IMG/VR virus record: IMGVR_UViG_3300008267_001924
Coordinates: 1 to 23,331 of that record
Source: a virus
Reading direction: 5' to 3' (one strand)
DNA: 23,331 bases
Shown here: positions 11,910 to 21,112 of the stretch, in pieces
Numbering within the stretch: the first letter of the stretch is position 1
Layout of the letters: every line of letters begins with the position of its first letter
Notes under the pieces: model-generated
Told to the model about the DNA's origin: nothing
Database searches by the model: none
What the model saw: the letters and a program-made list of their open reading frames with translations, nothing else
Program-made: the position numbers and the translations under genes

Positions 11910-13418
11910 TCAGTTAATCAACACGCCGCAGAACTGCGGGCCGGAGGAGGTAAGGTTACCCGCCCAGCCAATCAGTTTCACAATCATTCTGTTACTTCGC
12001 CTTTCGGCTACTGACCACCCTTTCGGATGGCGGGGCAACCTCTTCGGGTCACCCTCTGCGGCTTCTTTGGTTATACCGCAGTTCAGACTATCGCATGACA
12101 AGCCTTTTTCGCTTGTCCCCTCTCACTTAGTCGTTCAGCCTGCTTTCGCTTGGCCCCTGTTACCCGCTTCCGGGCTTCCAAGTCAATCAGAGAGGGTTTA
12201 TAGACGCCATTAGTGAATCGTAGGTTTAGCGTCTTGGTTGACAGCCTGACGGTCGCCGCCAATCGGGACAAAGTTTCTGTCCTTGTGGGGGCGGAACATC
12301 AGGTACTTGGTGTTGAGGAACCACATGTGGTTCGCGTTACCGACACCGCCGTTATACGACGACGAGCCGATACCACCGTCAAGCACCACATCCGAAGCCA
12401 TGCCAGCGCCGAAATACTTCAGCGAAGCAAAGCCAGCACCAGCCATGCCCGAACCGGAGTCCGTGATGCGCTGGATAGCCTGCAACGACTGCAAGTAGAA
12501 CTTGTAGTAGTTGTTGTCGGCAACGATGAGGTCAGGCTTGTCGGTACCGCGAATCAACTGCACCGCAACCGCATCCATGTAACCTTGGATGTTGCTGCTG
12601 GTCACAGCGCCCGTGCCGTCGCCAGTCGCCGAGAAGGCAACCGAACGCCAGAACTGCCACACCTGACGGTTGATGCCGCCGTAGGTGCCGGTGGACGGGC
12701 TGTCAGGCACAGCGGCAGCAAGACCCGTGAGGTTCTTACCCGCGTTGCCGGTGCCGTCACCGTACAGGTCACCGCTGATACGGTTCGCCAGTTGCGCCTC
12801 GGCAACCTCCATACGACCGTCGAGCAGGTCGATGATGGCTTCCTTACCCGAGTTCTGAATCATCTCCAGACCCGAGATGGACACAGCAGACGCCTGAACT
12901 GCGCCGCACTACCAAATGTTCACAAGGTTTCGTTACTTCCTTGCCGCCCTTTCGGACTGCTGCATATTTCTATGCAGAGCAGACTATCTCACAACCCTTT
13001 CGGGTTCTTTGCACTTCGAGCCACTTGGCCCTACGAGGAGTCACCCTCTAGTCGTTACGCCTTCCCTTTCGGGCTTGGCTCGGTGTTGCCTTCAACTAAA
13101 TGGTCAGGGTTCCACCGAATTCACAAAGTTCATTCAATGCAAATTGCTTTGCAAGGCCACTAGTATGTCAATGGGACTATTCTGACCGACATTCAATACC
13201 TCGTACCCAGAGTACGAATTTGTATTATTTGTCGTTGTATCATTGTACATGATTTCCTGAAGGATGGTTGAACCGCCCGAGAATGTCTTCACATTCCCGC
13301 GCTCCTTCAGGCGACGAAGCAACGCATTGTTGTTCGTGACATTATCCGCGAGTTCACCGCTACGGCTTTGGATGTTAGTGGCGATGATATCGCTGATACT
13401 GGAATTGGCATAAGCCAT
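11910..13418 (-). CDS. Major capsid protein, split by two group I introns; frame break in exon 2
   Basis: HK97-type coat protein in three exons: 13171-13418 (MAYANSSISDIIATN... to SP plus two bases of the next codon), 12228-12911 (SISGLEMIQNSGKEAIIDLL... to VNQDA) and 11910-11984 (IVKLIGWAGNLT to the stop). Without splicing, exon 1 runs into a stop at 13134-13136 and exon 2 at 12210. Splicing intron 2 joins NQDA to IVKLIGWAGN in frame, a natural coat C-terminus. Splicing intron 1 joins SPI to SAAQF, which fits the coat family as I remember it. After TTC at 12896 the frame must move by one base (net 1 or 10 bases missing) to reach QASAVSISGLEM. Spliced length is about 335-338 residues. AGGAG lies 7 bases before the ATG. 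Scaffold is upstream and a decoration-like gene downstream. Coat identity is strong; the exon 2 lesion is unexplained. Confidence 0.88.
11985..12227 (-). ncRNA. Group I intron 2 in the major capsid gene (243 nt, no ORF)
   Basis: Read on the minus strand. P1 is a 7-bp helix between exon AGACGCU and guide GGCGUCU, with the last exon U opposite G. P3: CCCUCUC with GAGAGGG. P5: GCCCG/CGGGU. P6: GGCC/GGCU with a GC-GAAA-GC arm. P7: GACUA with UAGUC. P8: GACAAGC/GCUUGUC. P9: CUGCGG/CCGCAG, followed by two GAAA-capped arms (CCAUCC/GGGUGG and GCC/GGC). P10: exon AUUG with UAAU. P4 (CUUG/CAGG) is the weakest helix. The terminal G is at 11985. Splicing restores the capsid frame exactly (GAC GCT joined to ATT GTG). 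Unlike intron 1 there is no pair of hairpins between P7 and P3'. It contains no ORF, so any mobility would need an endonuclease supplied from elsewhere. Confidence 0.87.
12912..13170 (-). ncRNA. Group I intron 1 in the major capsid gene (259 nt, no ORF)
   Basis: Read on the minus strand. P1: exon CCAU pairs with GUGG, with the exon's last U opposite G (U-G wobble) and the first intron U opposite A. P2: UGCAAA/UUUGCA with GCAA loop. P3: CUUUGUG with UGCAAAG. P4: CGGUG/CACCG. P6: GCC/GGC, with a CCC-GAAA-GGG arm. P7: GACUA (13041-13050 region) with UAGUC (12980-12990 region). Between P7 and P3' there are two extra hairpins (GAGG/CCUC and GGGCC/GGCUC), a group IA-like feature. P8: AACCC-GAAA-GGGUU. 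P9: CUGCAUA-GAAA-UAUGCAG. P10: the exon start UAGU pairs with ACUA next to the guide sequence, which sets the 3' splice after the terminal G at 12912. All required core helices are present. No homing endonuclease is encoded. Confidence 0.88.
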
Positions 13419-18742: not shown

Positions 18743-19044
18743 TTGCTGAACAGCCCAACTGCGAGAACAGCAGCGCCTGCGCCCGTCGTGACCTTCCACG
18801 GGCCGGTAGCCGCGTTGAGGCCAAGTTCGAGGCTATACACACCGATGGGCGTGTTGGCAGGGATTGCAAGCACGGTCGTGCTGCCGTCGATAATGCTAAC
18901 GGTCGAACTTACAGCCGTGGATACCGTCACCACGATGCGATGCAGGTAGTCGTTTGCTGCGCCATTGGTGCCAAGCACCTGCGCGGTCTGCGAGGCGGCG
19001 ACCGTCTCGTAGGGATACTGATACGGAAGATTAACGCCACTCAT
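18739..19044 (-). CDS. Small beta-rich phage protein
   Basis: 101 residues: PYQYPYETVAASQTAQVLGT, then YLHRIVVTVSTAVSSTVSII and VYSLELGLNAATGPWKVTTG. An all-beta single domain with no cysteines or charged patches. It may be a small head or neck protein; comparable proteins appear next to phage terminase and portal genes. It overlaps the terminase stop at its start (ATGA) and the next start at its end, so it is co-translated. Family not identified. Confidence 0.62.
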   Translation of the reverse strand: MSGVNLPYQYPYETVAASQTAQVLGTNGAANDYLHRIVVTVSTAVSSTVSIIDGSTTVLAIPANTPIGVYSLELGLNAATGPWKVTTGAGAAVLAVGLFSK

Positions 19045-20373
19045 ATTCGCGCCCTCCTTGAGACGCTGCGCTCATGCACTTGCCACATATCGTTAAGGGT
19101 GACTTCGTTCTGCGGCCCAACGATAAGCACCTTGCCCTCTAACGGCTTTTGCGCGGCAGGCTCCTGCCTCCACGCAACTGCCAACATACGGAAAGCGTCA
19201 GCAGGGTGTGATGTCCAATCATGTCGGGGTGATGCCCTGAACGCTTTCTTGTCCTCATCATACTCCCGTTGGTACTGCCGTAAAGCCTCTATCCCGTCGC
19301 CACATTTTACGGAATTGAACCAAGTTCGGGGCAACATTTGGCGAACTGCTTGGATTCCGTCCTGCAGGCCAATGTTAGGAACCACCGACAGATTGGCTAT
19401 CCCGAGGTGGTCGGCCAACTGCTCGACGATGCTGCGACCCGTCTGCAGGCTCTTTGCCCGTGCGTCATGCGGCAGGTAATGCTTGGCATACCGATAACCT
19501 TTGTTAACGACTACCTCTGCGATAGCGCGGATGTCTGCACCCGAGATGGCGAAGAAGTCGATGACGCGCACTTCGCCGCTGATGACCTGATACCACCAGA
19601 TAGCCGTGTCGTCGCGGTAGCCCAAGTCCCATGCCGTGTACACAGGGTAGCCGGGGTCGTGCTGCACCTCTGGGCTGATGCGGTGGTCTGCCTGTCGCAT
19701 CTCTGTGCCGTAGAACGCGCCAAGGATAGCCGCCTCGAAACTGCACTCGTACTCTTGGAGGTACTGGTCTTCCGACAACTGCGCCTTTGCTGCGTTGAGT
19801 TCACCCTGCGGTAGTAGCCCTGATTGGCTAGCGGGTAGGCGTAGCAGGAACCACTCATCGGGCAGGCGTTGGGCAGTCTCGTAGATGTCCCAGAACTGGT
19901 TCTTGCCCTTCGGCGTACCGGCGAACACAGCCCACCCTTGCTTGTCTGATAGGGCTGGGCGTATGACATTACCGAACACGCTGGGCTTGAAGTCGCCGTA
20001 TTCGTCTAGGTAGATACCGCTGAACCCGAGGCCGCGCATGGCATCTGCGTTGTCGGCTCCAAACAGACTGACCTTTACGCCGTTAACCAGCGTAATAGTC
20101 ATCTGCTGCTCGTTTGCGTCCTTGATGAGCGGTTCGGAGAAGAACTTAAAATAATCCCATGCGATGCGCCGTGCCATGTTTTGGTATGGCGCGACGAATC
20201 CGAACAAACCGTTTGGCCCCTTGTACATAATGGCCGCCCGAATGATGTCGTTGACGGCTGCAACTGTTTTACCTGCACCTGCGGCGGTGGGCGACTAAAC
20301 ACGCCCACCGCTTGCTCCTGTCATGGAAAGGCAAAAACGCCTTTCGAGGGTTATATGGCAGGACTACATCCAT
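19041..20373 (-). CDS. terL: Large terminase subunit (TerL), frame break at the Walker A loop
   Basis: DNA-packaging ATPase and headful nuclease. The true start at 20373 (MDVVLPYNPRKAFLPFHD) is in a different frame from the rest: 31 codons end in RWACLVAHRR, then the frame moves by +1 and continues GKTVAAVNDIIRAA. Removing 4 bases near 20280 restores VAHRRAGKTV, a textbook P-loop, and gives 442 residues, a usual TerL length. Other motifs are intact: Walker B IYLDEY (Asp/Glu ~122-123), the coupling motif FAGTPKG (~150-155), nuclease Asp in TAWDLGY (~248), HDARAKS (~301) and SHPADAFR (~385). TerL starts inside the end of the HNH gene. As written, only a frameshifting ribosome would make the full protein; a later start would lack the P-loop. 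Function is clear, state uncertain. Confidence 0.88.
20271..20282. repeat. Tandem GCAGGT pair at the terminase Walker A codons
   Basis: Two adjacent GCAGGT units on the minus strand overlap the HRR-AGKT codons. A 4-base difference from a normal P-loop sequence (CGC CGC then GCA GGT AAA) accounts for the +1 shift. It looks like partial slippage or duplication. Confidence 0.55.
20284..20311 (-). other. Perfect 10-bp stem-loop in the TerL leader, just before the frame break
   Basis: Arms GCGGTGGGCG and its exact complement surround an 8-base loop; a second 7-bp stem-loop (GAAAGGC/GCCTTTC) lies upstream at 20326-20345. Both fall inside the TerL coding frame between the HNH gene and the Walker A loop, and the frame break (20280) follows about three bases after the second arm. 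Neither has a T-run, so they are not intrinsic terminators. They may be chance products of codon use, a regulatory fold, or the cause of the adjacent lesion. Confidence 0.6.
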
Positions 20374-20852
20374 GCCCAATTCTTCCCGCGCCAAACTTCG
20401 TAAATTGCGCTTTTGCTTACGCCATACTTTTTTGCGTATTCAATGCCTGACAACGCTTTTGCACGAATGTCCTTCACGGCATCTTCTGTTAACCGCGCCC
20501 ATTTCGCATTGCGACCACGATTGTTTGGCGTGAAGTTGCGGCCCTTACGCACGCAATCTTGCATATTGTCTGACAGCGTTCCGCAGAACAGATGATTCGG
20601 GTTAACGCAAAGAGGCTGGTCGCAGTGATGCAATATGCACTCGCCTTTAGGAATATCGCCCCTGTAAAGCCGCCATGCTACTCGATGCGCTTTCGCGGTT
20701 CCCTCATCGCGGCGACCGAGGCCAATGACCCCGTATCCGTGTTCCTTCGTCGCGCCCGTCCAAAGCCAGCAACCCGTGTTCGGCTCGGGCATAACCTTAT
20801 CGTGGAACCTATCCCACAATGACCGGCGATACCGATGGTCGCCCTTTGCCAT
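20364..20852 (-). CDS. HNH endonuclease inserted between terminase genes
   Basis: 162 residues. A zinc-type HNH: CWLWTGA (~28-34), AHRVAWRLYRG (~55-65), then HHCDQPLCVNPNHL (75-88), where His75/His76, Cys77, Cys82, Asn86 and His87 form the HNH_3-type centre, followed by DNMQDCVRKGRN (~95-106). The C-terminus (LTEDAVKDIRAKALSGIEYA, then YGVSKSAIYEVWRGKNW) is a helix-turn-helix used by homing endonucleases to hold their site. It starts at the TAATG that also ends the small terminase gene and overlaps the TerL start by 10 bases, a clean insertion between two normally adjacent genes. It has no intron core of its own, so it is a free-standing homing-type enzyme. Base composition is a little AT-richer than the terminase body. 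Confidence 0.9.
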   Translation of the reverse strand: MAKGDHRYRRSLWDRFHDKVMPEPNTGCWLWTGATKEHGYGVIGLGRRDEGTAKAHRVAWRLYRGDIPKGECILHHCDQPLCVNPNHLFCGTLSDNMQDCVRKGRNFTPNNRGRNAKWARLTEDAVKDIRAKALSGIEYAKKYGVSKSAIYEVWRGKNWAWM

Positions 20853-21112
20853 TACTTGGGTTCGCCCCAACGGATGTTCAGTTCCTGCGGTTTGCCATCT
20901 ACGCCGCTGTGTTCGTGGCGTGCGAGTTTAGGCACATGGTATTCAAGTAAGTCGCTGAAGCACTTAAACGCCGCCTCTGCGCCCTTCTCTTGGTGTATCT
21001 CGTCAAGCCAGCCCTGCAAGCGGTCTGCGTTGCCGTCTACGAAACGAGAGATAGCCTCCCTCGCTGCTTGGGTTGACTTGTTCGGGCTTCCTTTGGGTCT
21101 TCCTGCTGGCAT
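20852..21112 (-). CDS. terS: Small terminase subunit (TerS)
   Basis: 86 residues, short for a TerS but with the usual start, PAGRPKGSPNKSTQAAREAI, a basic GRP/KG segment that often precedes a DNA-binding helix, then a helical core (ISRFVDGNADRLQGWLDEIH) and an end, PKLARHEHSGVDGKPQELNI, typical of TerS C-termini that contact TerL. TerS recognises the packaging site and loads TerL. Order (TerS before TerL, portal following) supports the call. It is followed directly by the HNH gene (TAATG). Upstream there is a 68-base AT-rich gap containing TATATT and no convincing -35, and no strong ribosome site before the ATG at 21112, so transcription probably continues from above. Confidence 0.76.
   Translation of the reverse strand: MPAGRPKGSPNKSTQAAREAISRFVDGNADRLQGWLDEIHQEKGAEAAFKCFSDLLEYHVPKLARHEHSGVDGKPQELNIRWGEPK

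Follow-up and report, generated by a model that had tools for sequence, protein, structure and literature searches.

A probable programmed translational bypass site in the Walker A motif of phage terminases, linked to an HNH endonuclease gene

Among phages, translational bypass has until now been near-singular, with T4 gene 60 and one further candidate (Hau3). In T4, a gap of 50 nt of non-coding sequence is bypassed in an essential gene that adjoins the homing endonuclease MobA; a stop follows the take-off codon, the tRNA is specific for glycine, a Shine–Dalgarno (SD)-like motif is present, a 5′ stem-loop has been modelled as the motor, and the gap is thought to protect against the endonuclease (PMC5009743). 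The further candidate is a putative bypass in the terminase gene terL of Streptomyces phage phiHau3 and prophage StrepC.1, with a short recoding gap, an SD-like motif 5′ of it and a Gly take-off codon; it is UUA-linked and has been interpreted as host regulation (PMC5009743). The mitochondria of Magnusiomyces capitatus carry Byp elements, many short bypassed inserts with imperfect landing matches, at 81 sites in 12 genes and largely independent of context (PMC5009743). In 70S ribosomes, a stable hairpin set against the E site acts like an SD:anti-SD duplex and promotes forward movement, as found with synthetic constructs that shift by 1 nt (PMC6321510). Apart from the phiHau3 remark, we found no report in the literature of the TerL site described below.

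Here we analyze the broken Walker A motif of terL in an uncultured virus record from IMG/VR, of which the whole stretch of 23,331 bp is hereafter called the window. Judged by comparison of sequences, the break is very probably a programmed translational bypass site carried on a mobile HNH-endonuclease cassette. As in T4, non-coding bases would be bypassed in an essential phage gene adjoining a homing endonuclease gene, with an SD-like motif, a 5′ stem-loop and, in several gap classes, a stop after the take-off codon; after T4, this would be a second apparent pairing of a homing endonuclease with translational bypass. What sets the present family apart from the known cases is the length and variability of its gap, its tRNA and signal sequence, and its breadth. 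Compared with T4 gene 60, the gap is 4–7 nt and variable and holds no hairpin, the tRNA would be Arg with a partial landing match, the gene is terL and the enzyme is of the HNH type. About 31 residues precede take-off here, and the N-terminal ~30 are ordinary TerL sequence, in which no nascent-peptide signal is apparent. The phiHau3/StrepC.1 site is unrelated in sequence, and the HNH linkage and the gap-length series are shown here and not there. In phiHau3 (L433 about 2590–2620, JX182369), the break also lies in Walker A (KGWG / YSGKD), just downstream of a perfect CTTCAG-CGG-CTGAAG stem. Because this break falls in the same motif and has its own short 5′ stem, recoding may have arisen convergently at the terminase P-loop, and the P-loop may be a repeated target. 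Unlike the Byp elements, the present family occupies one gene site with a conserved SD-like motif and hairpin, and unlike the synthetic constructs it is natural, with a predicted displacement of 4–7 nt.

In the window, terL lies on the minus strand and is split, VAHRR and AGKT being encoded in different frames (Table 1). The two are separated by 4 extra bases, AGGT (20280–20277), three bases past a perfect 10-bp hairpin; a preliminary description of this DNA had given coordinates for the site (20268–20311), the 4-base insertion and its distance from the hairpin, all of which are exact on rereading the strand. From 20319 to 20265 it reads AGGAG CAA (GCGGTGGGCG TGTTTAGT CGCCCACCGC) CGC AGGT GCA GGT AAA ACA, with the hairpin in brackets. 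The 0 frame starts at the ATG at 20373 and yields MDVVLPYNPRKAFLPFHDRSKRWACLVAHRR before the TAA at 20271–20269, whereas the AGKTVAAVND... frame is open down to 19041, its nearest upstream stop being a TAG within the hairpin loop.

Table 1 Coordinates of the features of the terL region in the window and the evidence for each
Feature	Position	Strand	Evidence
TerL 5′ segment, 0 frame, from ATG 20373 through VAHRR, then out-of-frame codons to TAA 20271–20269	20269..20373	-	Homologous to in-frame N-termini of 74 relatives
SD-like AGGAG; 4 nt lie between the end of GGAG and the conserved stem (CGG)	20315..20319	-	GGAG present in 32/35 distinct cores with a gap, 0/74 in frame
Perfect 10-bp hairpin with 8-nt loop, ending at the take-off codon; codons translated (RWACLVAHR)	20284..20311	-	8-bp core in 21/21 distinct 4-nt-gap cores vs 10/74 in-frame
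Putative take-off codon CGC (Arg)	20281..20283	-	CGC/CGA/CGT in all 73 gapped loci
Putatively untranslated gap AGGT; proposed landing on its final three bases, GGU	20277..20280	-	Gap length and sequence differ among relatives; landing always NG[U/C/A]
TerL 3′ segment, predicted to resume at GCA, the A of AGKT; encodes the ATPase and nuclease domains	19041..20276	-	Terminase_6N/6C, PHROG 2 TerL, purifying selection
HNH homing-endonuclease-like gene (HNH_3, PF13392) between TerS and TerL	20364..20870	-	Profile match; adjoins the element in 34/67 gapped and 0/71 in-frame loci
Very likely TerS, as it occupies the small-terminase position	20852..21112	-	Location and size; PHROG match only weak
Inferred mobile cassette: TerS 3′ end, HNH, TerL 5′ end, SD, hairpin and gap	20277..20996 (left edge approximate)	-	Identity block with L020/L167

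The gene has the hallmarks of a working TerL. It matches Pfam Terminase_6N and 6C, PHROG 2, and the structures of T4 gp17 and other TerLs, and it contains Walker B (IYLDE), the coupling motif (GTPKG), an RNase H-like nuclease domain and, only with the gap skipped, Walker A. Thirteen records, several of them >30 kb, hold one TerL each. TerL is under strong purifying selection, with a dN/dS of 0.04–0.15 for the C-terminal part where estimable and little amino-acid change in the N-terminal part. These values, together with intact TerL frames on both sides of the break, exclude the dead gene that had been put forward as one option.

The same break is found in independent metagenomes, which confirms that it is real and the product of neither chance nor error. 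Searching IMG/VR with the C-terminal part of TerL gave 80 relatives, 8 with the same break and 72 in frame as VAHRRAGKT (or IAHRRAGKT). A pattern for the break returned 38 contigs, and an unbiased pattern with any 4 nt between HRR and AGK returned the same 38 plus ten TerLs with TAGT, TAGC or TAGA, in which the codon next to Arg is a stop; its other matches were non-TerL. The hairpin followed by any gap of 1 to 13 nt was the pattern that added longer classes. In total, 72 further IMG/VR stretches have Walker A broken by frame or stop at the same codon, with gaps of 4 nt (AGGT, TAGT, TAGC, TAGA), 5 nt (AGGGT, AAGGT, TAGGT, TAAGT), 6 nt (TAATGT, one case, L418, in which the frame is kept but a TAA stop lies inside) and 7 nt (AAACCGT, AGATCGT). 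When the gap is skipped, the DNA of every relative predicts exactly VAHRR/AGKT, and no single frameshift can restore this product across all gap classes. As in T4 gene 60, coding would resume at a non-overlapping codon in any frame. The TerL frame relative to the N-terminus differs even among close relatives, and sisters such as L278 (TAGT) and L414 (TAGGT), or L158/L163 (AGGT) and L419 (TAAGT), differ in gap length.

Some TerLs carry the signals without a gap. L436 (5326 onwards), a gap-free sister of the 5-nt class, keeps the SD-like motif and the hairpin with HRRAGKT in frame, and represents either a natural gap loss or the pre-insertion state. Two diverged in-frame TerLs (L434, L435) likewise have GGAG and the full hairpin and no gap, and are either relics or pre-adapted states. 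Blastn of the 73-nt core against isolate phages gave nothing relevant, no isolate phage with the element was found, and the sampled isolate TerL relatives align without interruption through Walker A wherever the match extends to it. A scan of genome_contigs (84,980 species) returned five chance matches, none of them TerL, and no prophage relatives, and a hairpin scan with N8 loop spacing in place of N10 returned background only.

The hairpin of the window is unusually stable, with a 61-nt RNA fold of -24.7 kcal/mol (z = -3.0) that was equalled by 0 of 200 shuffles. Its 8-bp stem, CGGTGGGC/GCYCACCG, is complete in 35/35 distinct gapped cores compared with 10/74 in-frame cores; part of the gapped set was found by a pattern that includes the hairpin, and the clean comparison is therefore the 4-nt set found without a hairpin requirement (21/21 vs 10/74, P = 7e-14). 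The SD-like GGAG, which was part of no pattern that defined the compared set, usually ends 4 nt before the stem and is present in 32/35 gapped and 0/74 in-frame cores (P = 2e-24). Both P values take related sequences as independent and are thus overstated, and the in-frame control set consists mainly of TerLs near that of the window, but the contrast itself is near-complete. The SD-like motif is preserved through different codons and residues (RSK, TEK, GEK, RRQ), whereas in-frame relatives almost always have RT at this place (one has RN). At the third codon positions of the arms (-28, -10, -7), conservation is 0.92–1.00 in gapped and 0.39–0.58 in in-frame loci, despite the gapped proteins being more diverse than the in-frame set; synonymous positions within the hairpin are frozen. 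The arms hardly vary and base-pair covariation is accordingly not usable as support. A pattern of SD-like motif plus hairpin, blind to the downstream sequence, gave 68 matches in 2.9 million contigs, of which 65 are gapped terL and 3 in-frame terL.

The codons on either side of the hop would follow rules of their own. The take-off codon is CGC, CGA or CGT in all 73 gapped loci and never CGG or AGA, and the landing triplet (the last three gap bases) is GGT, AGT, AGC, AGA, TGT or CGT, with the middle base always G and the third never G. Its match to the take-off anticodon is full by wobble in the 7-nt gaps (CGN to CGU), uses a U-G wobble in the 6-nt gap, and is restricted to positions 2 and 3 in the 4- and 5-nt gaps, where codon position 1 is mismatched. 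These rules would fit hopping by tRNA-Arg(ICG) that holds by positions 2 and 3. Some gaps have AAA or AAG as the A-site codon, neither rare nor a stop, which means that a slow A site is not universal. The longer gaps of L406, L409 and L418 (6–7 nt) have landing triplets with a better anticodon match (UGU, CGU) than gaps of 4–5 nt (GGU, AGN).

The window taken alone would fit an ordinary +1 frameshift at CGC_AGG, in which one base is skipped and GGT GCA GGT AAA is read to give VAHRRGAGKT, with one extra residue. AGG is uncommon in the window (3.9 per 1000 codons), and +1 shifts in 70S and yeast systems are promoted by a hairpin that lies directly upstream of the shift site (PMC6321510). However, in relatives the same hairpin precedes gaps of other sizes, namely 5 nt (in the other frame), 6 nt (in the same frame, but holding a stop) and 7 nt, and the offset varies between relatives with the same signals in place of one fixed +1. 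Moreover, a P-site CGN pairs poorly one base along, and the P-loop, which does not vary among the in-frame relatives or in the gap-free L436, would become one residue longer. We thus consider a +1 shift unlikely. Recoding, offered in the preliminary description as a +1 shift or a bypass, is supported, and the second form fits better, because gaps of 4, 5, 6 or 7 nt in different relatives cannot be explained by any single frameshift. Internal initiation near AGGAG, giving TerL as two polypeptides, could draw on a GTG within the hairpin, 6 nt downstream of AGGAG and in the AGKT frame for the 5-nt class. This GTG is out of the AGKT frame in the 4-, 6- and 7-nt classes, no start codon was found upstream of Walker A in the AGKTVAAVND... 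frame of the window, and a split P-loop would be expected to abolish ATPase activity, all of which make two polypeptides extremely improbable.

Removal of the extra bases from the RNA, by splicing or editing ahead of translation, would also combine a variable gap with a constant product, and the hairpin abuts the gap. Yet an Rfam covariance-model search of the whole window had its sole match at 12960–13182, a group I intron in the capsid gene, with nothing at the terL site, and such removal would not explain why the landing triplet is always NG[UCA], why the take-off codon is never CGG, or why the SD-like motif is there. We know of no bacterial or phage system that excises 4–7 nt from mRNA, and consider this explanation very unlikely. 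The case for an error of sequencing or assembly, or for an inactivating mutation private to this contig, is that the window comes from an uncultured virus as a metagenomic contig and does have one private frame break elsewhere, in an ADP-ribosyltransferase-like gene. All 24 other distinct relatives that were checked lack that break and are in frame. In contrast, about 70 contigs, drawn from many metagenomes, share the terL break; their synonymous divergence is saturated, purifying selection on them is strong and the signals flanking the break are conserved. This recurrence excludes the sequence error considered earlier and leaves a negligible chance for either form of the explanation.

The HNH gene would tie the putative bypass site to a mobile element; neither this link nor the SD-like motif featured in the preliminary description. 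Among loci with enough upstream sequence, an HNH gene lies directly upstream of terL in 34 of 67 gapped loci compared with 0/71 in-frame loci (P = 6e-14), so that, as with mobA and gene 60, gap and endonuclease gene are physically linked, and relatives that lack the one also lack the other. It is seen in every gap-length class, about half of the gapped loci are without it, and the 25 closest HNH relatives all sit at a gapped terL (25/25). Distant HNH relatives (about 50% identity or less) have no hairpin/TerL site adjoining. Between the window and L020/L167, identity is 92–100% from about 20996, at the TerS 3′ end, through HNH, the TerL N-terminus, the SD-like motif and the hairpin to the gap, but 70–75% immediately 3′ of the gap and 53–68% 5′ of about 20996. 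Otherwise diverged phages thus have in common a block of ~0.7 kb whose border falls exactly at the gap. The TerL tree has at least 9 switches between gapped and in-frame states (by a quick method, and the tree does not give their direction). As in the mobA–gene 60 case, the identity block and the state changes point to horizontal spread and are characteristic of homing in which co-conversion stops at the cut site.

Putting the signals and the cassette together, we think it probable that there is a widespread family of minimal bypass modules, each made up of an SD-like motif, a 5′ hairpin that refolds, a take-off codon for tRNA-Arg and a gap of 4–7 nt. The modules would pass from phage to phage as the immunity part of an HNH homing cassette whose target is the P-loop codons of the terminase; refolding of the hairpin would be the motor, and gap length could drift freely. 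Ribosomes would read the hairpin codons (RWACLVAHR) up to the Arg codon CGC at 20283. Because the stem ends at the take-off codon, it would not be fully pairable with that codon in the P site; it would refold right behind the ribosome and favour forward motion, possibly assisted by pairing of the SD-like AGGAG with 16S rRNA, while the A site is occupied by a stop or other codon ([A/T][A/G][A/G]). The peptidyl-tRNA-Arg(ICG) would then detach, the mRNA be pulled by 4–7 nt and the tRNA re-pair at an NGU, NGC or NGA triplet, with decoding restarting at GCN to give the exact P-loop VAHRRAGKT. We infer that a hop of this size would place the stem about as far from the P site as the SD:anti-SD duplex is at initiation. 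The HNH enzyme encoded upstream probably cleaves TerL P-loop codons that are intact and uninterrupted, and repair would copy HNH, the TerL 5′ end and the gap to the recipient. The gap would abolish the cut site and so confer immunity, while bypass would preserve TerL function.

A bypass of this kind would show a way for an essential gene to tolerate an insertion in its most conserved motif, and a reason for gene callers to label such TerLs truncated. With natural length variants, gap-free sisters and consistent signals, the family makes the roles of the hairpin, the SD-like motif, take-off and landing directly testable.

Two further genes of the window are interrupted. The group I intron (RF00028, E = 5e-12, minus strand) interrupts the major capsid gene, which is therefore present as two ORFs (13418–13134 and 12884–12210). 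The ADP-ribosyltransferase-like gene (HGTPH...YGHGIYFAE; 22357–21181, minus strand) has its frame broken by a 10-nt near-duplication (GGTGAGGACGGGTGAGGGC).
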